DNA from: Rhodothermus sp.
Lineage (GTDB): Bacteria; Bacteroidota; Rhodothermia; Rhodothermales; Rhodothermaceae
Length of the DNA: 46,539 nt
NCBI GenBank assembly: GCA_030950375.1
Contig: JAUZRN010000050.1
Span: 1-46,539 of the forward strand
Reading direction: 5' to 3'
Shown here: piece after piece, positions 11,039-44,931 of the stretch
Layout of the letters: every line of letters starts with the position of its first letter
How positions within the stretch are numbered: the stretch's first letter is position 1
The notes under the pieces: generated by a model
Databases searched by the model: none
What the model was told of the DNA's origin: nothing
What the model saw: only the letters and a program-made list of their open reading frames with translations
Made by a program: the position numbers and the translations under genes

Positions 11039-12797
11039 CCTTGCGCATCTCCGAAGCTCCGTGATAGACGCCCAGCGTATCGCGCAGGATGGCCTGATAG
11101 CCCCCGAAAGCTCCGCGTGTAAATCGAACGCGATGGCCACGGCGTTCCAGCTCACGCACCACAGCCGGATCAAAGCCACTCTCGAGCAGCAGCATCCCAC
11201 GGCCTTCGTTCGTCCCCAGGGGTGTGCGTCCGCCAATATGCCGCCAGCGAGCCGCATCGCCCGCTTCCTGCACGTTCATGCCAAAGTCGATCAGATTCGT
11301 CAGGATCTGCACATGCCCCTGGGGTTGCATATCACCTCCCATTACGCCAAAGCTCAGCCAGGGCCGGCCATCCTTCATTACAAAACCCGGGATAATGGTA
11401 TGGAAAGGCCGTTTAGCAGGTGCATAAGCATTGGGGTGGTCGGGCACCAGAGCAAAGAGGGCACCCCGATTTTGCAGCATAAAGCCCAGACCGTCGGGGA
11501 CCAGACCGCTTCCCATGCCGATGTAGTTACTCTGGATAAGCGATACCATCATCCCCGATGCGTCGGCCACCGTCAGATAGATGGTATCCCCATCCGGCAA
11601 GGGTTCTTCCAGTCCGGGTCCCACTTCAGCCCGCACCGTATCCATGCGAATCAGACGACGCCGTTCGGCGGCATAGGCTTTGGAAAGCAGCCGCTCAAGC
11701 GGCACCTGGTAAAAGTCCGGATCGGCATAAAAACGAGCGCGATCCTCGAAAGCCAGCCGTTTGGCCTCGGCCATGACATGCAGATAGTCAGCGCTCCCCC
11801 AGCCCATGGCCCTGAGATCGAACCCTTCCAGGATATTGAGCATCTGCAATACGGCGATCCCCTGGCCATTAGGAGGCAGCTCGTAAACTTCGTAGCCGCG
11901 ATAGTTGACCGAGACGGGTTCGACCCATTCGCTTCGATGAGCGCTCAGGTCCTCCTTACGCAGGTAGCCGCCAATACGGCGCATGTAGGCATCAATCGTC
12001 TCAGCGATCGCCCCCTGGTAAAAGGCCTCCCGGCCCTGCTCGGCCAGCAACTCGTAGGTACGGGCCAGATCCGGATTGCGAAAGATGGTTCCCTCACGAG
12101 GCGCCTGACCGCCGGGGAAGAAGGTTTGTAATGCATTGTCAAATTCGGGAATCAGGTGACGGTTCTCCTGAAATCGCTCCAGATTCTGCGCCCAGTAGTA
12201 GGCAATCACCTGGGAGATCGGAAAACCCTCCCGGGCATAGCGAATGGCGGGAGCCAGTACTTCACCCATGGGCAGACGGCCAAAGCGGGCATGCAACGCA
12301 AACCAACCATCTACCGCACCGGGAACCGTCACTGGCAATACGCCCCAGCGGGGTATCGTTGGGGGCGCACCGGGCTCCGGAGGCTGCAACCGCTTCGCTT
12401 CGGCCACCATGACCTCAAATGAAAGGCCCTGAGGAGAACGACCGCTGGCGTTCAGGCCATAAAGCTGCTGCGTTGCGGGATCCCATACCAGGGCAAACAG
12501 GTCTCCTCCGATACCGCATCCGGTAGGTTCCATCAGACCCAGCACCGCATTGGCCGCAATGGCAGCGTCCACGGCCGAGCCTCCCTTTTTCAGGATATCC
12601 AGGGCGACCTGCGTGGCCAGCGGATGACTGGTAGCTGCCATGCCATGACGCGCCAGCACCGGGCTCCGGGTGGCAAAAGGAGCCCCAATAATTCGATCAC
12701 CTCCCCCGTGTCCGAAGACCTGGTCCTGAGCGTGTGTCTGTGGGATCCACATGCAGAAAGCCAGCAGGCAGGTTTGCAAAAGCACATATCGGATCAT
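11016..12797 (-). CDS. Gamma-glutamyltransferase-family protein, exported
   Basis: A 593-residue N-terminal nucleophile hydrolase related to gamma-glutamyltranspeptidase, which cleaves gamma-glutamyl bonds such as those of glutathione and self-processes into two subunits. Residues 1-23 form a signal peptide ending THAQD, so the enzyme should be periplasmic. The segment EPTGCGIGGDLFALVW near residue 90 is a family signature. The predicted autocleavage and catalytic site is Asp404/Thr405 in GDTIYLTVADASG. Thr405 is kept, but the following TH of the E. coli enzyme is IY, as in YwrD-like members, so the substrate may differ. SLIQSNYIGMGSGLVPDGLGF near residue 419 completes the small-subunit signature. 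Its ATG overlaps the macrodomain gene stop by 4 bp (ATGA). Confidence 0.88.
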   Translation of the reverse strand: MIRYVLLQTCLLAFCMWIPQTHAQDQVFGHGGGDRIIGAPFATRSPVLARHGMAATSHPLATQVALDILKKGGSAVDAAIAANAVLGLMEPTGCGIGGDLFALVWDPATQQLYGLNASGRSPQGLSFEVMVAEAKRLQPPEPGAPPTIPRWGVLPVTVPGAVDGWFALHARFGRLPMGEVLAPAIRYAREGFPISQVIAYYWAQNLERFQENRHLIPEFDNALQTFFPGGQAPREGTIFRNPDLARTYELLAEQGREAFYQGAIAETIDAYMRRIGGYLRKEDLSAHRSEWVEPVSVNYRGYEVYELPPNGQGIAVLQMLNILEGFDLRAMGWGSADYLHVMAEAKRLAFEDRARFYADPDFYQVPLERLLSKAYAAERRRLIRMDTVRAEVGPGLEEPLPDGDTIYLTVADASGMMVSLIQSNYIGMGSGLVPDGLGFMLQNRGALFALVPDHPNAYAPAKRPFHTIIPGFVMKDGRPWLSFGVMGGDMQPQGHVQILTNLIDFGMNVQEAGDAARWRHIGGRTPLGTNEGRGMLLLESGFDPAVVRELERRGHRVRFTRGAFGGYQAILRDTLGVYHGASEMRKDGHAAGY

Positions 12798-31917: not shown

Positions 31918-31949
31918 GCGAAGCGGCGGCCTTCGGGCCGCCGCTTCGC
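31918..31949 (+). terminator. Perfect 14-bp hairpin with TTCG loop between receptor and cargo genes
   Basis: GCGAAGCGGCGGCC (31918-31931) pairs with GGCCGCCGCTTCGC (31936-31949) around a TTCG tetraloop. It begins 22 bp after the receptor stop codon. No T run follows, so it may be a partial terminator, a processing or stability element that sets the ratio of the two genes, rather than a full terminator. Confidence 0.6.
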
Positions 31950-31995: not shown

Positions 31996-33660
31996 ATGAA
32001 GCCACGTTTTACCACGCTGGTGTTTCTGCTGATGTGGCCTCTCCTGAGCCACGCGCAGCCTGTGGTGATCGTCACCGATGCCGACATCGGTCCGGGCGAT
32101 CAGGTCACCTGGACCAGCGATAACATCTATGTGCTGGACGGCTTTGTCTTCGTCGAAGAAGGGGCCACGCTTACCATTGAGCCCGGCACCATCATCAAGG
32201 GAAAACCCGGTACCGGCGAAAACGCCTCAGCCCTCATTATCACACGCGGCGCACGCATCTATGCTGAGGGGACCCCTGATCGTCCTATCATCTTTACCGC
32301 CGAAGCTGACCCGCTCGACGGTAGCTTCGACGCTTCCATCCGCGGCCAATGGGGCGGTCTGATTCTCCTCGGACGCGCCCGCACCAACCTGGCTAATGGC
32401 GAAGCCAACATCGAGGGCATTCCTTCCACTGAAACCCGTGCCCGCTATGGATGCGTGCCGCACAATACGACACCTACCACCGTCGACGACTGCGATGACA
32501 ACGACAATTCCGGGGTGCTCCGCTACGTCTCCATTCGCCATGGCGGCTCCAACATTGGTGCCGACAATGAAATCAATGGGTTGACGCTCGGCGCTGTCGG
32601 CCGCGGCACCACCATTGAATACGTTGAAGTCTTTGCGAACGAAGACGACGGCTTTGAATTCTTCGGCGGTACCGTCAACACCCGCTATCTGGTAGCCGCC
32701 TTTTGTGGCGACGACGCCTTCGACTACGACGAAGGATTCCGTGGCAAAGGGCAGTTCTGGTTCGCTATCATGTCGTCCGACGTAGGCAACCGGGCTGGTG
32801 AGCACGATGGTGGTCGCGATCCCGAAGACGGACAGCCCTTCGCCATCCCCCTCATCTACAACGCCACCTACATCGGGGCAGGCGCCAGCTCCGGCAACGC
32901 CGACAACGATACCTTCGTCTTCCGCGACAACGCAGGCGGTAAATACTTCAATTCCATCTTTACCGACTTCGGTAACATCGGCATTGAGGTGGAAGATGTA
33001 GCCAACGTCAACGTCGATAGTCGTCAGCGCCTCGAACAGGGGGATCTGGTGCTGGCCAACAATATCTGGTGGGGTTTCGGTGCCGGCAACAACCTGGCCG
33101 ATTTTGCACCACAGGACTTTGTACAGCAACACCTGCAGGCCAACCACAACGTCGTCGAAGATCCCATGCTACGCAGCATCAGCCGCATACCTGATGGCGG
33201 TCTGGATCCACGGCCGCGTCCGGGCTCCCCGGCCCTGACGCTTCCCCGAGCCCCCTACCCCGAAAATGATACTTTCTTCACGCCCGTAGCCTATATCGGC
33301 GCCTTTGGCCCCGACACCCTCTGGATCAAAGGCTGGACGAAACTTGCGCAACTGGGCATTCTGACGGGCCTGACGCCCCCTACCCGAACACGCCCGACTA
33401 CCATCATCCTGGGGGCTGGATACCCCAACCCCTTTCGCTCCAAGACAACCCTGACCCTTGTGTTGCATCAAACGCAACCTGTGCGCCTGGCCGTTTACGA
33501 TCTGCTGGGACGTGAAGTCGCGCGCCTTGTCGAGGGCGTCCGCCCATCTGGCACCTACCGGTTTACCTTCGACGGCACCCACCTGGCAGCCGGCACCTAT
33601 CTGGTCCGCCTTGAAACTCCATCGGGCGTACAGGTTCGAACGCTGACGCGCCTACCCTGA
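31996..33660 (+). CDS. Exported T9SS cargo protein with C-terminal sorting domain
   Basis: A 554-residue surface or secreted protein. Signal peptide residues 1-21 (ending SHAQP). The N-terminal two thirds look like a right-handed parallel beta-helix: VEEGATLTIEPGTIIKG, PDRPIIFTAEADP and repeated Asp/Asn-rich turns such as DDCDDNDNSG that could bind calcium. A conserved FFTPVAYIGAFGPDTLWIKGWT segment near residue 425 precedes the C-terminal part. Residues about 475-554 are a type A T9SS sorting domain: YPNPFRSKTTL, VYDLLGREVARLVEG, YRFTFDGTHLAAGTYLVRLET, ending VRTLTRLP. The sorting domain is normally removed on export and the protein anchored to the surface. It follows the TonB-dependent receptor, so the two may bind and import the same nutrient. 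Confidence 0.9.
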   Translation: MKPRFTTLVFLLMWPLLSHAQPVVIVTDADIGPGDQVTWTSDNIYVLDGFVFVEEGATLTIEPGTIIKGKPGTGENASALIITRGARIYAEGTPDRPIIFTAEADPLDGSFDASIRGQWGGLILLGRARTNLANGEANIEGIPSTETRARYGCVPHNTTPTTVDDCDDNDNSGVLRYVSIRHGGSNIGADNEINGLTLGAVGRGTTIEYVEVFANEDDGFEFFGGTVNTRYLVAAFCGDDAFDYDEGFRGKGQFWFAIMSSDVGNRAGEHDGGRDPEDGQPFAIPLIYNATYIGAGASSGNADNDTFVFRDNAGGKYFNSIFTDFGNIGIEVEDVANVNVDSRQRLEQGDLVLANNIWWGFGAGNNLADFAPQDFVQQHLQANHNVVEDPMLRSISRIPDGGLDPRPRPGSPALTLPRAPYPENDTFFTPVAYIGAFGPDTLWIKGWTKLAQLGILTGLTPPTRTRPTTIILGAGYPNPFRSKTTLTLVLHQTQPVRLAVYDLLGREVARLVEGVRPSGTYRFTFDGTHLAAGTYLVRLETPSGVQVRTLTRLP

Positions 33661-35776: not shown

Positions 35777-35806
35777 GCAAAAGTCATCGGCCGGAGGTTG
35801 AAAGCC

Positions 35807-36037
35807 ATGCGGAGTGATGCGGCCCCGCTGACCTGTTTCCAGAAAGGGCAACATGTGCAGATCGAATGGCTGGCCCTGGAGGAGGAGCATGCGCAACGGC
35901 TTCGAGAGCTGGGCGTGCGCGAAGGCTGCCGGGTCTGCGTCATGCTCAACGCCGACAAATGCATCCTCGGGATCGGTGCCTGTCGGCTGGCCCTGCAACG
36001 TGAAGTAGCCATGCGGCTGTTTGCTGTGCCTGCCTGA
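35807..36037 (+). CDS. feoA: FeoA-family protein (first copy)
   Basis: A 76-residue SH3-like cytosolic protein that supports the FeoB iron(II) transporter. The family core is visible: RLRELGVREGCRVCVMLNADKCILGIGACRLALQREVAMRLFAV, matching the FeoA pattern LxxLGLxxGxxVxVL...SRLALRRExA. It is Cys-richer than usual (positions in LTCF, GCRVCV, KCIL and GACR). I chose ATG 35807 over the TTG at 35798 because a strong Shine-Dalgarno GGAGG (35793-35797) sits 9 nt upstream of the ATG. The second feoA follows after 3 bp. Confidence 0.88.
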   Translation: MRSDAAPLTCFQKGQHVQIEWLALEEEHAQRLRELGVREGCRVCVMLNADKCILGIGACRLALQREVAMRLFAVPA

Positions 36038-36040
36038 GCG

Positions 36041-36265
36041 ATGATAACCCTGCGCGATCTCCGGCCGGGCGAACGGGGCCGTGTGACAGGTTACGTCAGC
36101 GACCGCCTCCCTCCCCGCATCTTTGAAATGGGTCTGTTGCCCGGTACTGAAATCGAAGTGGTCCGGCTGGCCCCTCTGGGTGACCCTATTGATCTAAAAG
36201 TCCGTGGCTTTCACCTCTCCATTCGTAAGCAGGATGCGGAGTTGATCCAGGTGGAACGGCTATGA
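36041..36265 (+). CDS. feoA: FeoA-family protein (second copy)
   Basis: A 74-residue FeoA protein, closer to the consensus than the first copy: TLRDLRPGERGRVTGYVSD, then RIFEMGLLPGTEIEVVRLAPLGDPIDLKVRGFHLSIRKQDAELI. The conserved GDPIxxxVRGxxLSLRxxDA segment is nearly exact. Its last codons overlap the feoB start by 4 bp (ATGA), so it is translationally coupled to feoB. Two FeoA domains ahead of one FeoB is a known arrangement, and the two copies may play different roles in the transporter complex. Confidence 0.92.
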   Translation: MITLRDLRPGERGRVTGYVSDRLPPRIFEMGLLPGTEIEVVRLAPLGDPIDLKVRGFHLSIRKQDAELIQVERL

Positions 36266-38523
36266 GTGGAAGCTGCCACGAGCCAACTGCTGCGCTTGAA
36301 ACACTCCGAGCGCCAGTCATTGTCCAGCGCATCGCGTTGGCCGGCAATCCCAACGTGGGCAAAACCACGTTATTCAATCTACTGACGGGACTGCGCCAGA
36401 AGGTGGCGAATTATCCGGGCGTAACGGTCGAACGCAAAAGCGGCCGGCTGGTCGGGCATGAAAGCATTGAGGTGATCGACCTACCGGGCACCTATAGCCT
36501 GAATCCTCGCTCCATTGATGAACGCGTCGCCTACGACGTGCTGGTCGGGCGTATGCCGGGCGAGCCGGCCCCCGACATCGTCGTGTGCGTGGTCGATGCC
36601 ACCAATCTGGAGCGCAACCTCTACCTGGTGACCCAACTCATGGACCTGGGGTTGCCGGTCGTGGTGGCTCTCAACATGATGGACGCGCTGGCCGAAAATG
36701 GTCTGGAGCTGGACGTCAACGGACTGGCGCGGCGCCTGGGCGTACCGGTAGTGCCCATGGTAGCCCGCAAGGGACAGGGCGTCGATCAGCTAAAGAAAAT
36801 CCTGCTGCGTGGCGTGCCGTCTCCGCCAGCCGAGCGGCGTTGGACACTCATGCCGGCCGTGGCTGCGGTCGTCGAAGATCTGGCCCGGCGCCTGGGCGAA
36901 GAGGTTCCGGACGTGCCCGAACGCCAGCGCTTCTTCGAGGCACTCAGTGCCTTGACCAGCGATACGCTGCTGGAAGTCTGGAAACGCCGGGCGCCCCGCT
37001 TCTACGAAGCCGTACACGCAGCCCGTCAGGATCTGGAAACCCGCAAGGTGCCGTATCGCCAGGCCGAGATGATCGGCCGCTACGGCTGGCTGAGCCCGCT
37101 CGTGGCCGAAGTGCTGCGACGGCGGCCGGACGCTCAGGAGCGTACGCTTTCGGACCGTATCGATGCGGTACTGACGCATCGCATAGCCGGCCCGCTGATC
37201 TTCTTCGGCCTGCTGCTGCTCATCTTCCAGGCTATCTTCTCCTGGGCAGTGCCGTTCATGGACGCCATCGAGGAAGCCGTGGCCTGGGCCGGTGAGCAGG
37301 TGCGTGCCGTCATGCCCGATGGCTTTCTGGAAGACCTGATCGTCGATGGGGCCATCACCGGTGTCGGCAATGTGCTGGTCTTTCTACCCCAGATCCTGCT
37401 TCTGTTTTTCTTCCTGGGAATTATGGAAGACACCGGCTATATGGCCCGTACGGCGTTCATCATGGATCGCTTGATGCGAAGGATGGGGCTGAGCGGCGCC
37501 TCAGTGGTCCCCCTCCTGAGCGGTTATGCCTGCGCCGTACCGGCCATTATGGCTGCCCGCACACTCGACAACGAACGCGACCGGATCATCACCATCATGG
37601 TCACGCCGTTAATGAGCTGCTCAGCCCGCCTCCCTGTCTACACGCTGTTCATCGCGGCCTTTATTCCAAACACACCGGTAATCGGTCCGCTGAATGCCCA
37701 GGGACTGGCTATGTTCAGTCTTTACCTGCTGGGTACGAGCATGGCGTTTGTGGCTGCCTGGGTGCTCAAGACATTTGTCTTCAAGGGCGAAAGTGCCTAC
37801 TTCGTCATGGAGCTTCCCCCCTACCGGGCGCCTCAGTTCAAGCAGATCCTCTATCGGATGATCGACCGCGCCAAGGCGTTTGTCACCCGAGCTGGCAAAA
37901 TTATCTTCAGCCTGAGCATTGTGATCTGGTTTCTGGCCAGCTTTCCCCGTGCCGAACTGGACCCGGAGCTCGTAGCGCAGCGCCAGACGCTGGAAACCTG
38001 GTATGCACACGCTCGGGATAGTCTGGAGGCGGCTGGCGCTTCGGCCGCGGCATTTGCCGAACTGGCAGCGACCTACGAAGCACGCCTGGCTTCTATCGCC
38101 GACGCCGAGGCAGCCCGCCAGATCAGCCAAAGCTTCATCGGACGCCTTGGCTATGCGCTGGAACCCCTGATGCGACCGCTGGGCTTTGACTGGAAAATCA
38201 CGGCGGGGATCATTTCTTCCTTCCCGGCCCGCGAAGTAATCGTAGGCACCATGGCCACTATTTATGGCGTAGCGCATGCCGGCGAAGACGAAATCATCCT
38301 GCGCCAGGTGTTGCGGGCCGATCCGGCGTTCTCTCCGCTGGTAGCTGTCAGCCTGATGGTCTTTTACGTGTTCGCACTGCAGTGCATGAGCACGCTTGCC
38401 ATTGCACGCCGCGAGCTGGGTACCTGGAAATGGCCGGCCGTCATGTGGCTGTACATGTTCGTACTGGCCTACCTGTTTTCCCTTCTGGTTTACCAGGGGG
38501 GACGCTGGCTGGGAATCGGATAA
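36262..38523 (+). CDS. feoB: Ferrous iron transporter FeoB
   Basis: A 753-residue inner-membrane iron(II) transporter with an N-terminal G domain. G1 is GNPNVGKT (residues 28-35), G3 is DLPG (73-76) in VIDLPGTYSLNPRS, and G4 is NMMD. The helical spacer follows to about residue 285. The membrane part has two gate repeats: GFLEDLIVDGAITGVGNVLVFLPQILLLFFFLGIMEDTGYMARTAFIMDRLMRRMGLSG, and the second with FPAREVIVGTMATIYG. The conserved SGYACAVPAIMAARTL segment contains the Cys linked to iron passage in this family. An insert rich in Ala/Glu (about residues 565-620) lies before the second gate. All features are intact. It is the last gene of the feo operon. Confidence 0.96.
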   Translation: MSGSCHEPTAALETLRAPVIVQRIALAGNPNVGKTTLFNLLTGLRQKVANYPGVTVERKSGRLVGHESIEVIDLPGTYSLNPRSIDERVAYDVLVGRMPGEPAPDIVVCVVDATNLERNLYLVTQLMDLGLPVVVALNMMDALAENGLELDVNGLARRLGVPVVPMVARKGQGVDQLKKILLRGVPSPPAERRWTLMPAVAAVVEDLARRLGEEVPDVPERQRFFEALSALTSDTLLEVWKRRAPRFYEAVHAARQDLETRKVPYRQAEMIGRYGWLSPLVAEVLRRRPDAQERTLSDRIDAVLTHRIAGPLIFFGLLLLIFQAIFSWAVPFMDAIEEAVAWAGEQVRAVMPDGFLEDLIVDGAITGVGNVLVFLPQILLLFFFLGIMEDTGYMARTAFIMDRLMRRMGLSGASVVPLLSGYACAVPAIMAARTLDNERDRIITIMVTPLMSCSARLPVYTLFIAAFIPNTPVIGPLNAQGLAMFSLYLLGTSMAFVAAWVLKTFVFKGESAYFVMELPPYRAPQFKQILYRMIDRAKAFVTRAGKIIFSLSIVIWFLASFPRAELDPELVAQRQTLETWYAHARDSLEAAGASAAAFAELAATYEARLASIADAEAARQISQSFIGRLGYALEPLMRPLGFDWKITAGIISSFPAREVIVGTMATIYGVAHAGEDEIILRQVLRADPAFSPLVAVSLMVFYVFALQCMSTLAIARRELGTWKWPAVMWLYMFVLAYLFSLLVYQGGRWLGIG

Positions 38524-38619
38524 GGCGTCTTCGATACGGGTACTTAACTATGGGCAGCCCTTAGTCGATTTTTTGCAAAACTTCACCTGGGCCTTCCGGT
38601 AAACAGGGTAGCCACCGGG

Positions 38620-39102
38620 ATGATCATGACCCGCATCCGCGCCCATATCGCCCCGTCCGTTAGCCGGCTCATGCTCGGCCTGCTGGTGCTTTTCCCGCTG
38701 GGGCCGCATACGCTGACCGGCCTGCTGCTGTGCATCGAAGCCGGCGGGCGGGTTCATGTCGAAGGGGTGACCGATAGTGATTGTGCCGCTATCGAGCTGC
38801 TGGCTTCCTGGGAAGGCCATCCCGTCTTCCCGGCTGTATTCTCGACGCAACCCATAAAATGGCAACGTGTCGATTCCTCAGTAGCATGCATTGATGTGCC
38901 CTTCCTTCTCAGTCCTACCGATGGTTATGGTCAGGTGGCGCGTGGACAGGCCGTTGTGCAGGTGGTGGCAGCGGCTGTAAGCATATTGTGGATTTCATGG
39001 GATCTGGTTTCAGGCTGGACTCCTCCGTTTCATCTGACATCGTCATCTTTCTTCTTTACGCACCCTTTCACTTCGCTTCGTACTGTCATCCTGCTCCTCT
39101 GA
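38620..39102 (+). CDS. Small exported protein at head of metal efflux operon
   Basis: A 160-residue protein of unknown function. The N-terminus MIMTRIRAHIAPSVSRLMLGLLVLFPLGPHTLTGLLLC is a signal peptide or membrane anchor. Next come LLCIEAGGRVHVEG and SDC, then VACIDVPFLL near residue 88. This CI..GG.V.VE ... C.DIPL layout resembles, from memory, small periplasmic proteins that precede czc-type efflux genes in other phyla. A second hydrophobic segment (about residues 112-128) is followed by a Phe/Ser-rich tail SSSFFFTHPF ending VILLL. Its Cys and His residues could bind metal. The stop codon lies 3 nt before a long stem that covers the ribosome binding site of the next gene, so its translation may control the efflux genes. 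Start ATG 38620 or 38626. Confidence 0.7.
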   Translation: MIMTRIRAHIAPSVSRLMLGLLVLFPLGPHTLTGLLLCIEAGGRVHVEGVTDSDCAAIELLASWEGHPVFPAVFSTQPIKWQRVDSSVACIDVPFLLSPTDGYGQVARGQAVVQVVAAAVSILWISWDLVSGWTPPFHLTSSSFFFTHPFTSLRTVILLL

Positions 39103-39104
39103 TT

Positions 39105-39208
39105 CCCTCCAGAAACGGCGCACTACCCGAGCTTTAAACGTGCGCCTTGCCTTACCGACCTTCCGTCAAGGGATGGTTTCGGATCTGTCTGTCAATGTTT
39201 CTGGAGGG
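39105..39208 (+). promoter_or_regulatory. Three-helix mRNA leader sequestering the SD of the TolC-like gene
   Basis: P1: CCCTCCAGAAAC (39105-39116) pairs perfectly over 12 bp with GTTTCTGGAGGG (39197-39208). The right arm contains the whole Shine-Dalgarno GGAGGG (39203-39208), 5 nt before the ATG at 39214. P2 abuts P1: GGCGCAC (39117-39123) with GTGCGCC (39140-39146). A weaker P3 is CCTT/AAGG (39159-39162 with 39168-39171), extended by ACC/GGT. The result is a three-way-junction-like RNA. The left arm starts 3 nt after the stop of the upstream gene, so a terminating ribosome would cover it and free the SD. Confidence 0.65.
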
Positions 39209-39213
39209 TTCCT

Positions 39214-40575
39214 ATGGTTTATACTATCCGTTTGTACCTGTGGATTGGTGTACTTTTGCTGTTGGGATTGGGCTGTGCAGCGCCGCGTGATCTGGCCTGG
39301 CAACCGCCTCGTCCTCTGGCCGCAGACCAGCTGGCCTATCGGCCGCCCAAGCGTCCAGTTTTCGACGCCGCAGCCGATACCAGTCGCACCGTAGCTCAGC
39401 TTACCCTCGAAGCAGCGCTCCGCTACACGCTGCGCTTTAATCCCGAACTGCAGGCCGCCGCCTGGGAAGTACGTGCTCGCGAGGCCCGTGTATTACAGGC
39501 CGGACTGTGGCCCAATCCGGAACTTGAATCAGACATAGATGGAGCAGGCGCGACAGGCCCGGGGCTGGATCCGCAGGACCGGGAAATGAGCCTGGTCCTC
39601 ACCCAGGAGTTACCGCTGGGCGGGGACCAGGGAGCGGCCCGCCGGCAGGCTATGCAGGAAGCGCGGCTGGCCGGCTGGAACTATGAAGCGGTGCGTCTGG
39701 AACTGGTGGCACGTACCCGTCAGGCGTTTATCGAAGTGCTCACGGCCCAGGAGCGGCTGCGCCTCGCCGATAGCCTGTTACAGCTTGCCAGGCGCTTTGA
39801 GGCGGCCGTCCAGGCACGCGTATCGGCCGGCAAGGCCCCGCCGTTTGAGGCACGCCGTGCCATGGTAGTGCGGGCCAATGCGGAGCTGGCAGCCCGGGAA
39901 GCAGCCCAGATGCTGAAAGCTGCTCGCCGCCAACTACGCAGTCTCTGGGGACCCGCAGGTCCGCGCTTCGATCGCGTGATAGGCACCCTGGGCGAAATCG
40001 AACCGGTGCCTTCATTTGCCATGCTCCGCCCACTACTTGCCCAACATCCAGCGCTGGCGCAGTTTGTAGCCCGCCGTGCCTTACAGCAATCGGCCCTGCA
40101 ACTGGCTCAGGCCCGACGGATTCCCAATTTGAATCTGGTAGCCGGCCTGGTCCGCTACGGAAACACAGGGACCCAGGCCTTTCGCCTGGGACTACGACTT
40201 CCGCTCCCGCTGTTCGACCGACAGCAGGGCAACATCCAGGAAGTCCGCTACCGTCTGCTGCAGACCGAAACCGAAGCAGAAGCGGTGCGCCAGGCCCTGC
40301 TCCGACGTCTGGCGCTGGCGCATGCGCGCCTGCTCACTTCCTACCAGGCCGTCCAACAACTGCAACAGGAGGTGCTACCTGCCGCCCGAGAAATCTTTGC
40401 TGTCATCGAGCAGGGGTATCGCGAAGGCAAATTTGACCTGCTGACCGTGCTGGATGCACAGCGCACCCTGCTGGAAACGACCAATCAGTATCTCGATGCA
40501 CTGCGGGATTATCACCAGGCGCGAGCTGAGGTCGAGGCGTTAATCGCCCAACCGTTGAATCGTCTGTCCCACTAA
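39214..40575 (+). CDS. TolC-family outer-membrane efflux lipoprotein, CzcC-like
   Basis: A 453-residue outer-membrane channel of the TolC/CzcC type. The signal peptide ends in lipobox LGLGC with Cys21, so it should be a lipoprotein. Two repeats of the outer-membrane-factor fold are visible: LTLEAALRYTLRFNPELQAAAWEVRAREARVLQAGLWPNPELES and, in the second half, LRYLGLRLPLPLFDRQQGNIQEVRYRLLQTE-like sequence with helix FDLLTVLDAQRTLLETTNQYLDALRDYHQARAEVEAL. Gene order with the fusion protein and pump confirms the role. GGAGGG 5 nt before the ATG is a strong ribosome binding site, but it lies in the predicted P1 stem of the leader. The next gene starts 21 bp after the stop. Confidence 0.92.
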   Translation: MVYTIRLYLWIGVLLLLGLGCAAPRDLAWQPPRPLAADQLAYRPPKRPVFDAAADTSRTVAQLTLEAALRYTLRFNPELQAAAWEVRAREARVLQAGLWPNPELESDIDGAGATGPGLDPQDREMSLVLTQELPLGGDQGAARRQAMQEARLAGWNYEAVRLELVARTRQAFIEVLTAQERLRLADSLLQLARRFEAAVQARVSAGKAPPFEARRAMVVRANAELAAREAAQMLKAARRQLRSLWGPAGPRFDRVIGTLGEIEPVPSFAMLRPLLAQHPALAQFVARRALQQSALQLAQARRIPNLNLVAGLVRYGNTGTQAFRLGLRLPLPLFDRQQGNIQEVRYRLLQTETEAEAVRQALLRRLALAHARLLTSYQAVQQLQQEVLPAAREIFAVIEQGYREGKFDLLTVLDAQRTLLETTNQYLDALRDYHQARAEVEALIAQPLNRLSH

Positions 40576-40596: not shown

Positions 40597-41793
40597 ATGT
40601 GGATCGATAAAGCCTATGTGCTGGCGTTTCTGAGTGCCGGGTTGCTGTTGATCGCTACCGGCTGTCAATCTGGCGACGCGGACCCTCCACCGGAGAGTAC
40701 CACGGAGGCAAACCATTCAGAGGCCGAGGCTGACCATCTCGAAGCGGTCAGCCTGGAACAGATTGATCTGGAAGACTTTGCGATCGAAATCGATACCGCA
40801 GGCCCTGGAACGCTGGCCTTTACCAAAACCTTCCCGGGGGAGGTACGCGTCAACGAGGATCAATTCGCGCACGTGGTCCCTCGGCTGTCCGGGATCGTAC
40901 GTGAGGTTTATGTAACGCTGGGCGACCATGTGGAGGCAGGCCAGCTCATGGCCGTCCTGGAAAGCCGCGAGCTGGCCGAACTGAAGGCCAACTATCTGGA
41001 TGCGCTGGCTCGCCTGGAACTGGCCCAGGCCACCTATGAACGGGAAGCCCGCCTGTACCGGGAGAAGGTTTCCTCGGAGCAAGAATATCTGGAAGCCCGT
41101 CAGGCGCTGGCAGAAGCCCAGATTGCATTACGTTCGGCTGCGCAAAAACTGCTTGCGTTAGGATTCTCTCAGCGCTATATCGAAGCCCTCCCTGACCAGC
41201 CTGACAGCCTGCTGCGCCTCTATCAGTTGCGTGCGCCTATCCGGGGTACGGTAGTCGCCAAACACATCGTTCAGGGAGAAGCCGTCGAAGCCTTTACCAC
41301 CGTTTTCACGGTGGCCGACCTGTCCACCGTCTGGGTCGATCTGTCAATCTATCAGCAGGATCTGGCCCGTATCCGTGAAGGCCAACGGGTCACTATCCTG
41401 GGCCTGAATCATCAAGAAGAAGGCATCATCTCCTATGTTCAACCGCTGGTTGAAGAAGACCGGCGCACCGGACTGGCCCGCGTGGTGCTACCTAACCCCC
41501 ACGGCCTCTGGAAGCCGGGCCTGTTCGTCACCGGTCAGATCGTAATCGGACGACAGCGCTACGAGGTAGTCGTGCCACGGGGTGCCATTCAGACGATGGA
41601 TGATGCGCCCATTGTCTTCGTCCCAACCCCGGAAGGTTTCGTGCCGCGACGCGTCCAGATCGCAGCTGAAACCGACAGCCTGATCGCCCTCGCCGATGGA
41701 TTGGCTGCCGGCGAACCCTATGTCGTACAGGGGGCCTTTACCCTGAAAGCCGAACTGGAAAAAGAAGAAATCGGCGAGGGTCACGGCCATTAA
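40597..41793 (+). CDS. Efflux RND periplasmic adaptor (membrane fusion protein), CzcB/CusB-like
   Basis: A 398-residue lipoprotein adaptor (Cys23 in LIATGCQSG). It links the inner-membrane pump to the outer-membrane channel. After an acidic, His-containing leader (EANHSEAEADHLEAVSL, possible metal contact) the domains run: beta barrel and lipoyl half VPRLSGIVREVYVTLGDHVEAGQLMAVLES near residue 90, alpha hairpin LARLELAQATYEREARLYREKVSSEQEYLEARQALAEAQ, lipoyl second half YQLRAPIRGTVVAKHIVQGEAVE and the beta-barrel and membrane-proximal parts to the end. The C-terminus finishes EEIGEGHGH, a small His cluster typical for metal efflux systems. It starts 21 bp after the channel gene and is followed by the pump after 36 bp. 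Confidence 0.93.
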   Translation: MWIDKAYVLAFLSAGLLLIATGCQSGDADPPPESTTEANHSEAEADHLEAVSLEQIDLEDFAIEIDTAGPGTLAFTKTFPGEVRVNEDQFAHVVPRLSGIVREVYVTLGDHVEAGQLMAVLESRELAELKANYLDALARLELAQATYEREARLYREKVSSEQEYLEARQALAEAQIALRSAAQKLLALGFSQRYIEALPDQPDSLLRLYQLRAPIRGTVVAKHIVQGEAVEAFTTVFTVADLSTVWVDLSIYQQDLARIREGQRVTILGLNHQEEGIISYVQPLVEEDRRTGLARVVLPNPHGLWKPGLFVTGQIVIGRQRYEVVVPRGAIQTMDDAPIVFVPTPEGFVPRRVQIAAETDSLIALADGLAAGEPYVVQGAFTLKAELEKEEIGEGHGH

Positions 41794-41829: not shown

Positions 41830-44800
41830 ATGCGTAAGCTGATAGATTTTGCCCTGCGGAATCGTCTGCTGGTGCTCTCGCTGGGCCTGCTGGTGATGGG
41901 CGCTGGATGGTATGCGTACACGCGCCTGCCCGTTGATGCTTTCCCGGATGTTTCGCCTTCGCTGGTCCAGGTGTTCACGGTAACACGCGGGCTGGCCCCC
42001 CAGGAAGTTGAACAGTACGTCACCTATCCGATTGAGCGGGCTATGAGCGGACTGCCTCGACTGAAGCAGATCCGCTCGGTCTCTAACTTTGGCCTGTCGG
42101 TCGTCAACATCTACTTTGAAGATGGCACCGACATTTACTTTGCCCGACAGGTGGTCGGAGAACGCCTGCAAGAAGTGCGTGAACAGATCCCGCCCGGCTT
42201 TGGTGAACCCCAGATGGGGCCTATCTCCACGGGCATGGGTCTGGTCCTGTTCTACTATCTGGAGGACACCACGGGCCGCTATTCCCTGGAGGAGCTGCGC
42301 ACCATCCAGGACTGGGTCGTCAAACCCATGCTCGAATCGGTGCCGGGGGTGACCGAGGTGCTTGGCATCGGCGGTTTTGAACGTCAGTTCCAGGTCAACG
42401 TCGATCCGAACGCTCTGCTGCGCTATGGCGTCACAATGGCCGAGCTCGTCGAGGCCATCGAAGCTAACAACCTGAACGTAGGCGCCCAGTTCATCGAACA
42501 GCACGGCGAACAGTTCGTCATTCGCTCCGAAGGACTGGCCACTGGCATCTCGGATATTGAAAACATTGTAGTCAAAACCGTCGATGGCACACCGATCTAT
42601 GTACGGGACCTGGCCCGGGTAGAAATCGGTGGTGCAATTCGTCGAGGACTGCAAACGCGCAATGGCATAGAGGAAGTCGTCGCGGGCATGGTGATCAAGC
42701 TCTATGGGACCAATGCCTCGACCGTCATTGCCCGCGTCGAAGAAAAACTGGCCCAGATAGAAGACGTACTGCCACCAGGTATTCGCATTGTCCCCTACTA
42801 TGAACAAAAGACGCTGGTTGAGGCTGCCGTTTCCACCGTGACCAATGCGCTCTGGCAGGGCATCCTGCTGGTGATCCTGGTGCTGGTCGCGTTTCTGGGG
42901 TCCTGGCGGCCCAGCGTGGTGGTGGCCCTTTCCATTCCTTTCTCGGTGTTGCTGTCTACGCTGTTCATGGGGCAGCTGGACATCTCGGCCAATTTGATGT
43001 CGCTGGGTGGGCTGGCCATCGCCATCGGGATGATGGTCGACGGTGCCATTGTGATGGTGGAAAACGTGGATCGCCATCTCCGCAATGCAGCGCCCGACGA
43101 ACCACGACTCCATGTTGTCGCCCGGGCCTGCTTGGAAGTAGCTCGGCCGGTCGCGTTTGCCATTGCGATCATCGTGATCGTCTTCCTACCGTTGTTTACC
43201 CTGCAGGGTGTCGAGGGCAAAACGTTCCGGCCGCTGGCCTATACCACCGCGCTGGCCATGTTCGGCTCGCTGGTCTTTGCGCTGGTGGTGGCCCCCGTGC
43301 TCTCCAGTCTCGTCATGCGTCGGTCCTCTTCAAACCGCACGCCCATTGGAGAACGCGTCATTCAGCGACTGTTGCACTTTTACCGGCCGCTGGTCACGTT
43401 CTTTGTGCAGCGTCGCACCTGGGCTATTGCCCTGGCTGGGGGGCTACTGTTACTGGGCGCTACGGCCTTTCCATTTCTGGGCAGTGAATTTACGCCGACC
43501 CTACAGGAGGGCACCATCGTGCTTCGTCTGACCATGGCGCCTTCCATTTCACTCACCGAGGCTAAGGCCACCACGCAGCGCGTCGAACGTCGCCTCATGC
43601 AGATTCCGGAGGTCATTGGGGTCGTTACTCGAATCGGCCGCGGCGAAGTTGGCGCGCACAGCGATCCCATCAACTCTGCCGAGATGTATATCCTGCTGAA
43701 AGAACGCGACGAATGGCGCGTAGACAACCAGGAGGAGCTACTCGCGCTCATTCGGCGGGAGCTGGGCACCCTCCCGGGCGTGCTGACCAACTTTACGCAG
43801 CCCATCCAGATGACCGTCGATGAACTGCTTGAAGGCGTGCGGGCGGAGCTGGCCGTCAAGCTCTTTGGCGACGATCTGGAAACGCTCAAGCAAAAGGCGG
43901 ACGAGATCGTGGCCGTACTTCAGACCATCGAGGGCGCCCGCGATGTGCAGGCCGACCAGATCACCGGCACGCCTCAGATCCGCATCGTGGTCGACCGAGC
44001 TGCTATTGCCCGCTATGGGATCAATGTGGCTGACGTGCAACGTACCATTGAAGCGGCCATTGGAGGCGTAGAAGCGGGGCTGGTCTTCGAGGGGGTACGC
44101 CGCTTCCCCATCTACGTACGCTATCAGGCCCCCTATCGGTCGACCCCGGAGCAGATTCGTCAACTGCTTATTCCGGCGCCCGGTGGCATCCACGTCCCCC
44201 TGGCAGAGCTGGCCAGCGTGGAGGAAGTCATTGGCCCGCGCCAGATCACACGCGAAGACCTCCAACGTTTTATCACCATCCAGCTTAATGTAGAAGGCCG
44301 AGATATCGGCTCGTTCGTGGCCGAAGCTCAGCGGGCCATCCGTGAACGCATCGAACTACCCCCGGGCTATTTCATCACCTGGGGAGGCCAGTTCGAGCTG
44401 CAACAGCAGGCCAACCGGCGGTTGATGCTGGTGATTCCCATTACGTTGCTGATCGTGCTGGTACTTCTTTACAGCACATTCAACTCCGTGCGCAATGCGG
44501 CCCTGATCATCCTGAACATTCCCCTGGCGCTGGTGGGTGGCATTTTGGGGCTATGGCTCACCGGTCAACACCTGTCGGTTCCTGCCTCCGTAGGCTTCAT
44601 TGCGCTCTTTGGCATTGCCCTGGAAAATGGCCTGGTGCTGGTATCTTACATCAATCAGCTCATTCGCGATGGCTGGAGCATCGATCGCGCAGCCATTCAG
44701 GGCGCCTTACTCCGACTCCGCCCCGTACTCATGACCGCCCTTACCACCTCACTGGGCCTCTTTCCCCTGCTATTCTCTCAGGGGACCGGTGCGGAAGTGC

Positions 44801-44931
44801 AGCGACCCCTGGCCACCGTGGTGGTTGGAGGCCTGTTTACCTCCACCATCCTGACCCTGCTGGTCCTACCGGCCCTTTACAAATGGTTTGCGATTCGTCT
44901 GCCCTATGACCAACCTCCGAGGTCCTCATGA
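41830..44931 (+). CDS. HME-RND heavy metal efflux pump, CzcA/CusA family
   Basis: A 1033-residue inner-membrane proton-driven metal exporter with twelve membrane segments and two large periplasmic loops. The start MRKLIDFALRNRLLVLSLGLLVMGAGWYAY is typical. The TM4 signature reads GGLAIAIGMMVDGAIVMVENVDRHL. The two central residues Asp and Glu (VDG and VEN) are present, but the DFG Asp of CzcA is replaced (AIG), as in CusA-type copper/silver pumps. FTQPIQMTVDELLEGVRAELAVKLFGDDLE, near residue 655, is the opposite: it resembles the CzcA/CnrA group. The metal therefore cannot be assigned from sequence. Its stop overlaps the PII-like gene by 4 bp (ATGA), so both are translated together. Confidence 0.95.
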   Translation: MRKLIDFALRNRLLVLSLGLLVMGAGWYAYTRLPVDAFPDVSPSLVQVFTVTRGLAPQEVEQYVTYPIERAMSGLPRLKQIRSVSNFGLSVVNIYFEDGTDIYFARQVVGERLQEVREQIPPGFGEPQMGPISTGMGLVLFYYLEDTTGRYSLEELRTIQDWVVKPMLESVPGVTEVLGIGGFERQFQVNVDPNALLRYGVTMAELVEAIEANNLNVGAQFIEQHGEQFVIRSEGLATGISDIENIVVKTVDGTPIYVRDLARVEIGGAIRRGLQTRNGIEEVVAGMVIKLYGTNASTVIARVEEKLAQIEDVLPPGIRIVPYYEQKTLVEAAVSTVTNALWQGILLVILVLVAFLGSWRPSVVVALSIPFSVLLSTLFMGQLDISANLMSLGGLAIAIGMMVDGAIVMVENVDRHLRNAAPDEPRLHVVARACLEVARPVAFAIAIIVIVFLPLFTLQGVEGKTFRPLAYTTALAMFGSLVFALVVAPVLSSLVMRRSSSNRTPIGERVIQRLLHFYRPLVTFFVQRRTWAIALAGGLLLLGATAFPFLGSEFTPTLQEGTIVLRLTMAPSISLTEAKATTQRVERRLMQIPEVIGVVTRIGRGEVGAHSDPINSAEMYILLKERDEWRVDNQEELLALIRRELGTLPGVLTNFTQPIQMTVDELLEGVRAELAVKLFGDDLETLKQKADEIVAVLQTIEGARDVQADQITGTPQIRIVVDRAAIARYGINVADVQRTIEAAIGGVEAGLVFEGVRRFPIYVRYQAPYRSTPEQIRQLLIPAPGGIHVPLAELASVEEVIGPRQITREDLQRFITIQLNVEGRDIGSFVAEAQRAIRERIELPPGYFITWGGQFELQQQANRRLMLVIPITLLIVLVLLYSTFNSVRNAALIILNIPLALVGGILGLWLTGQHLSVPASVGFIALFGIALENGLVLVSYINQLIRDGWSIDRAAIQGALLRLRPVLMTALTTSLGLFPLLFSQGTGAEVQRPLATVVVGGLFTSTILTLLVLPALYKWFAIRLPYDQPPRSS

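Follow-up and report, generated by a model that had tools for sequence, protein, structure and literature searches.

The locus examined here raises the question of why the SD of a metal-pump gene is buried in an mRNA stem that begins just after the stop codon of a small upstream gene, and whether the ribosome on that small gene sets the translation of the pump. The window, that is, the whole 46,539-nt stretch of Rhodothermus sp. DNA that was analysed, carries on its plus strand a gene for an OEP/TolC-like outer-membrane channel of the CzcC/CusC type (39214–40575; PF02321, E 5.7e-44), followed by a membrane-fusion protein gene of the CusB/CzcB type (40597–41793; PF16576, E 3.6e-45) and an RND pump gene (41830–44931; PF00873), whose end is overlapped by a P-II-like gene (PF00543; 44928–45272). 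The best-scoring solved structures for the RND pump are ZneA (697 bits) and CusA (677 bits), so it is assigned to the heavy-metal type; since the two scores are close, they do not single out the metal. Ahead of the OEP gene, and on the same strand, lies a small gene (38620–39102) matched by a family profile, which encodes a probably exported protein of 160 residues, or 158 if translation starts at the ATG at 38626, the start codon being uncertain. The genes further upstream encode FeoA, FeoA and FeoB, with the tandem FeoA genes at 35798–36265 ahead of FeoB. Elsewhere in the window, a 14-bp perfect inverted repeat with a 4-nt loop (31918–31949) is found upstream of the gene at 31996.

The P1 stem and its position

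P1 is a perfect 12-bp match between the left arm CCCTCCAGAAAC (anti-SD; 39105–39116, plus strand) and the right arm GTTTCTGGAGGG (39197–39208, plus strand), and both arms were recovered by folding and by a repeat search. The right arm contains the full SD GGAGGG (39203–39208), which stands 5 nt ahead of the OEP ATG at 39214, and the left arm begins at the third nucleotide past the TGA of the small gene (39100–39102), where we propose that the ribosome would pause; in both respects the initial annotation had read the sequence correctly. The fold that it called for, on 39095–39225, gave an MFE of -45.9 kcal/mol (z -3.86), a stability that none of 200 shuffles equalled, with P1 and the second helix P2 both in the MFE structure, and the predicted probability that the SD is unpaired in the window leader is 0.00.

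How often such a repeat arises by chance depends on where it is sought. Within the 111-nt gap between the two genes, a 12-bp inverted repeat appeared at a frequency of 0.0002 in 5000 dinucleotide shuffles, in line with the earlier estimate of less than about 1 in 1000, and a 10-bp repeat anchored at the ends was seen in 0 of 20,000 gap shuffles. Across the whole window, 12-bp inverted repeats with a loop of at most 150 nt were seen twice against 0.57 expected from 30 first-order Markov sequences, so repeat length alone cannot carry the claim, which rests in addition on position and conservation. As to position, 46 co-directional gene pairs with gaps of 60–300 nt were drawn from the window and 15 other stretches of its genome, genes being called by a simple longest-ORF rule; a stop/start helix of at least 9 bp was found solely at the target, and one of at least 8 (G-U counted as 0.5) at two of the 46 pairs, the target being one of them. 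The second-best stop/start arm pairing of the control stretches lies on the minus strand of L061 (oriented 12053–12164; -21.2 kcal/mol, 111-nt gap).

A further reading places control at the level of transcription, where pausing at the end of the upstream ORF would shield the RNA from Rho or set an attenuator and P1 would be secondary. It has been reported that CruR works through Rho-dependent termination (PMC9426467), and in three Balneolales-type regions (L105, L137, L138) a terminator-like hairpin with a T-rich run was seen by eye before the RND gene. In the window, the SD itself sits in the right arm of P1, no T-run follows the helix on its 3' side, and a scan of 38400–39400 for promoters (sigma-70 consensus only) and terminators found no site in the leader; its single minus-strand promoter-like site and its only terminator-like site (38808–38833) both lie within the small ORF. 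Transcription-level control is accordingly considered improbable for this operon. In L105, L137 and L138 the small ORF precedes the RND gene, and attenuation, rather than concealment of an SD, may be how the leader works in these loci.

Conservation and covariation of P1

OEP orthologues were collected by a protein search in 60 related genomes. Three genus members and numerous loci further away share one anatomy ahead of the OEP gene: the small ORF, hydrophobic at its N-terminus, is followed at its stop codon by a left arm, and a right arm comes shortly before the OEP start. The near set comprised the stop-to-start sequence of 24 loci in 22 genomes, with the window included and a decayed copy in genome G025 left out. 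If the arms have been kept as partners, each left arm should pair better with its own right arm than with those of other loci, and this is what was found: the summed duplex energy of the own arms was -508 kcal/mol, against a mean of -327 (sd 18) for permuted right arms, and 0 of 20,000 permutations reached the observed value. With 12 clade representatives of our choosing, 0 of 100,000 permutations did so, and a helix of 9 was formed by 8 of the 12 own pairs as against 3 of the 132 swapped pairs. Own and swapped arms were both left free to find their best register, and neither test depends on the hand-registered rows of the alignment described below. The own right arm was the best partner of its left arm among all 24 in only 8 loci, because near-copies and a shared CTCC/GGAG core compete.

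In 20 of the 24 loci no more than 5% of 500 shuffles equalled the own duplex; the others were G055 (29 of 500), G095 (44), G053 (154) and G037 (486). A helix of at least 8, with G-U counted as 0.5, is present in 20 loci and one of at least 9 in 14, and the first pair of the best duplex falls 0–5 nt past the stop in all 24, the duplex being weak in G037 and G053. Exceptions to P1 amount to four loci, namely G037, which has a 346-nt gap and no stem, G053 with a weak one, G005 with 6 bp, and G103, where the stem is interrupted.

The nature of the changes was followed in an alignment of 21 hand-registered loci, which left out the near-copies G016, G026b and G026c, the loci with no, weak or interrupted P1 (G037, G053, G103), other Balneolales-type loci and all nine loci of the most distant type. 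Double-sided changes occur at all 12 P1 pairs in these chosen loci; the covariation score was 0.673, compared with 0.225 after shuffling and at most 0.175 when the arms were slid, and paired cells made up 82.5%, compared with 58.3% in shuffles, the 82.5% being a figure for the chosen rows because the loci were registered by hand and rows were left out. The arm sequences themselves diverge widely, from CCCTCCAGAAAC in the window to TTCTCCGG, CTCCTGATC, CTCTGATCAG and GATTCAGGACC elsewhere. Similarly, G002, a member of the same genus, has a second, distant pump operon whose OEP is 36% identical and which bears a 13-bp stem of its own. The initial annotation had made conservation or covariation of the arms in relatives a test of the stem, and the permutations and the compensatory changes together bear the stem out.

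These results decide against a chance inverted repeat or a DNA dyad such as an operator in place of an RNA element: 12-bp inverted repeats are not rare window-wide, as noted above, but arms that covary across clades and are tied to the stop and start codons make such a reading scarcely credible. Plain chance was rejected by the own-versus-swapped tests, the covariation and the control gene pairs.

Conservation of the stem has its bounds. Among more distant loci, 36 of 40 regions had a usable intergenic stretch, those left out being L106 (start unclear), L108 (broken frame), L124 (contig end) and L126 (apparent chance hit); a helix of at least 7 was found in 14 of the 36 and a shorter one in 22, including 9 of 9 loci of the most distant type, the branch that keeps the protein motif described below without a P1 stem. 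In three regions of the Melioribacteraceae type (L121, L122, L123), P1 is replaced by a small local hairpin, AAAACT..AGTTTT, around the GGAG ahead of the OEP start, and the small protein retains a YTTVSLII-stop tail.

The interior of the stem

Two possible roles had been proposed for the leader, a riboswitch-like metal sensor or translational coupling, and the RNA enclosed by P1 bears on the first. In the window, P2 is a perfect 7-bp helix (39117–39123 with 39140–39146, plus strand) stacked on P1 and present in the MFE fold, just as described earlier; the third helix was recovered as a weak local hairpin, P3, which the MFE fold and the genus consensus place at 39155–39182 (plus strand) instead of the 39154–39177 first given. 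P2 is kept in four genus members, with some pairs changed on both sides, others broken and a small covariation term (-0.19).

In a metal riboswitch, the RNA within P1 would bind the metal directly, and the nested P1–P3 helices of the window count in favour of such a reading. Across the 12 representatives, the interior ranges from 19 to 193 nt and shares no 6–8-mers beyond shuffled expectation, several P2 and P3 pairs are broken among the four genus members, and a search of the whole window against Rfam at gathering thresholds, which covered the suggested covariance-model search of the leader, returned no match. Since interior length varies, no motif is shared and Rfam gives no match, a riboswitch is very improbable, and the interior, as far as examined, is unlikely to be an aptamer.

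Accessibility of the SD

The second proposed role, translational coupling, fared better. Given its footprint, a ribosome whose A site holds the stop codon should overlap the first nucleotides of the P1 left arm. Termination was therefore modelled by keeping the first 14 nt past the stop unpaired, with the accessibility of positions -18 to -4 as the readout. Under this block the mean accessibility rose from 0.26 to 0.47, with a gain of more than 0.1 in 20 of the 24 loci, and under a control block in the middle of the interior it stayed at 0.26. The window leader behaves otherwise in the prediction: with the left arm blocked, accessibility at 37 °C falls from 0.17 to 0.06, because GACCTTCC (39157–39164, plus strand), an alternative anti-SD predicted from constrained folds, takes over the pairing of the SD, and at 65 °C the increase is limited (0.20 to 0.35). 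This may point to a second lock in the window species, or to an error in the prediction.

The initial view that a ribosome finishing the small gene opens the stem thus agrees with the position of P1, the hiding of the SD, the covariation and the gain in 20 of 24 loci, and disagrees with the model of the window leader at 37 °C. P1 sequesters the SD in the predicted fold and begins at the stop of the small gene, and compensatory changes preserve it in relatives; a ribosome arriving at that stop should therefore open it, and coupling of OEP translation through P1 to the ribosome at the stop of the small gene is regarded as very probable.

The small leader protein and its family

Such coupling leaves the question of what the small protein itself contributes. 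Its family is unnamed: searches of Pfam and NCBIfam with the window protein and 25 relatives gave nothing convincing. Profile matches were obtained in 23 of 114 genomes of the order, one of them being the decayed copy, in 51 of 244 genomes of the class and in 46 of 394 genomes drawn from the phylum, where the weakest matches (G418, G302, G175) look spurious or fragmentary; the most distant branch is mostly from Melioribacteraceae/Ignavibacteria. Of five other genus members searched, G001 and G004 are without the small protein. The decayed copy of G025 (L054), with in-frame stops, lies upstream of an OEP-like gene. In two of the three G026 copies, both of those examined, an ArsR-type regulator gene (HTH_5) is found directly upstream of the small ORF (L044:1044-1370, L059:1018-1359).

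In an alignment of 29 members chosen from all branches found, C36, E46 and D90 are invariant, and 7 of the 29 have His or Gln at the position of C88. The only cysteines of the window protein are C36, C53 and C88, the middle one being lost in the genus member G005. A CxxxC/CxxC metal motif is absent from the window protein; the family is mixed in this respect, several relatives having CxxC where C88 lies. The alignment shows a hydrophobic stretch at the N-terminus, where an AlphaFold2 model built on 29 sequences has a helix, followed by three short strands and one short helix, with most of the tail from residue 100 (100–128 and 136–158) below a pLDDT of 50; with a mean pLDDT of 60.6 on so few sequences, the model is weak. 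Taken together with the variable interior of P1, the invariant residues suggest that the sensor-like part conserved at this locus is the small protein rather than the RNA.

At the other end of the protein, 27 of the 29 members finish with the pattern [TS][VIL][VILSE][LI][LRI][INLV] directly before the stop, and the other two end in TVVRILYN. The motif can be summarised as TVVLL[I/N]-stop; the window protein ends in TVILLL, the codons of the conserved LRTVILLL running from 39076 to 39099 (plus strand) up to the stop. The pattern was drawn up after the family had been viewed; among 519 long open frames of the control stretches, the target alone has it. This background consists of six-frame, stop-to-stop frames of at least 150 codons, not of called genes. 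Across 21 loci the amino acids of the tail are kept while the codons vary, which marks it as a protein-level motif, and it also ends six members whose profile match stops short of the C-terminus (G290, G337, G293, G267, G296, G532).

Between D90 and the C-terminus lies a stretch of 63–72 residues in 27 of the 29 members (median 67; outliers 76 and 87), and its length is kept more closely than its sequence: identity is 14% in this spacer, compared with 51% around C36–E46 and 49% in the last eight residues. The distance from the N-terminus to C36 is fairly constant (sd 3.1), that from C36 to D90 is 19–55 residues (sd 6.8), and the last cysteine lies at least 50 residues from the end in 26 of the 29. 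A near-constant length with a free sequence resembles a ruler, which would span the translocon and the ribosome tunnel.

The main rival to control by the nascent chain is plain translational coupling, in which P1 does no more than tie OEP translation to freshly made small protein. That protein would have a task of its own as a metal-binding helper in the periplasm, and its C-terminus would serve as a signal of the protease or PDZ type. P1 and its position fit this reading, the conserved Cys, Glu and Asp could form a metal site of the mature protein, and the conserved hydrophobic C-terminus could be a protease signal, a C-terminal nonpolar degradation signal having been suggested for CruR (PMC9426467). 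On the other hand, a helper has no obvious need for a spacer of 63–72 residues at 14% identity, the weak AlphaFold2 model has no large folded domain, and the motif runs right up to the stop codon, beside the P1 arm. Because of the conserved Cys/Glu/Asp, the near-constant spacer and the motif at the stop, nascent-chain control is favoured, and plain coupling is considered rather unlikely.

Comparison with known systems

Known regulators offer several precedents for control by a nascent exported chain. It has been reported that CutF of Rhodobacter capsulatus is exported co-translationally, binds Cu and is slowed at a C-terminal proline-rich motif, upon which the stem over the cutO SD opens, and that OEP genes were the commonest downstream neighbours in a survey of CutF-like proteins (both from PMC9973294). 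The window system shares with CutF–cutO a small, probably exported protein just upstream of metal-handling genes, a cysteine motif, a C-terminal motif and an mRNA stem over the downstream SD. As in leaders of the DUF2946 type, a same-strand metal-homeostasis gene lies directly downstream in the window, with a stem covering its SD. The proteins themselves differ: hmmscan against Pfam and NCBIfam (E up to 1; 16 + 10 members) found no DUF2946 match in the 26 members searched, and 27 of 29 members, the window protein included, lack PP within the last 15 residues, which is present in L011 and L120. Unlike in CutF-like leaders, the motif TVVLL[I/N] stands at the stop itself and the window protein has no CxxC. 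The CutF survey, by the criteria given in PMC9973294, admitted proteins of less than 150 residues with PP within the last 15; the window protein would escape it, having 158–160 residues and no PP.

CruR of Bordetella pertussis, upstream of bfrG, is similarly an upstream ORF with a Cys motif and a conserved C-terminal motif, and it is metal-responsive; as described in PMC9426467, CruR has CXXC and RAPP, and copper relieves its arrest and triggers Rho termination, whereas the window system has a covarying stem over the SD. SecM–secA, VemP and MifM are likewise upstream ORFs with a localization signal and conserved C-terminal residues (PMC10987492), and the sequences of 27 of the 29 members here end in such conserved residues. 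PMC10987492 also describes arrest peptides that end in NSP-stop, NAP-stop or DGMK-stop, some of which arrest only when the stop codon is present, a precedent for pausing at termination; those peptides lie upstream of Sec/YidC genes, not of a metal pump, and the tail found here is unlike their motifs. CzcI, a small protein upstream of czcCBA in Cupriavidus metallidurans, has been suggested to be a metal-sensing regulator and is described as being without a C-terminal proline motif (PMC9973294); by that description it resembles the small protein in preceding a czcCBA-type operon and in lacking that motif. By analogy with these systems, the arrangement fits the SecM/CutF type, in which a nascent exported chain would gate pump translation.

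Proposed mechanism

The following mechanism is proposed, in which the small protein would be a cis-acting regulatory leader of a CzcCBA/CusCBA-type pump operon. Its N-terminal signal would feed it into the Sec channel as it is being made. Once the ribosome stands at the stop codon, the spacer of about 67 residues would place the Cys/Glu/Asp part beyond the membrane, in reach of metal, and at the same moment the T-V-V-L-L-[I/N] motif would lie at the peptidyl-transferase centre. Metal binding would slow or hold the chain, so that the ribosome would linger at the stop codon and cover the left arm of P1; P1 would open, the OEP SD would be exposed and the pump would be made. With metal absent, the ribosome would depart, P1 would close and the pump would stay low. 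That metal is the signal is suggested by the pump type and the conserved Cys, Glu and Asp, and we infer export, pausing at the stop codon and the direction in which metal acts. Taken as a whole, this model of a nascent exported sensor is judged somewhat probable.

It is about evenly balanced whether the family represents a new class of extracytoplasmic metal sensor, in which the TVVLL[I/N] tail would hold the ribosome at the stop and a ruler of about 67 residues would reach to a Cys/Glu/Asp site, with no detectable sequence relation to CutF or CruR. Such a class would occur in Rhodothermales- and Balneolales-type bacteria and in Ignavibacteria; in one branch a covarying stem over the SD would couple it to pump translation, and outside that branch a different switch would do so. 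Literature searches found no reports of arrest peptides in Bacteroidota linked to efflux, nor any on the HYC_CC_PP family, and the literature from 2024 on combining CruR and CutF gave nothing relevant beyond the arrest-peptide survey.

Biological significance

If the mechanism is correct, the family would be a second solution for metal sensing by a nascent exported chain, in a group of the Bacteroidota and unrelated in sequence, as far as can be detected, to the first, and its end motif would differ from the arrest motifs described in the accessible part of PMC10987492. The locus is a compact test system, with one stem, one six-residue tail and one spacer length. If true, the proposal would also give a function to an unannotated protein family and explain how extracytoplasmic metal can set pumps of this kind when no sensor kinase is involved.
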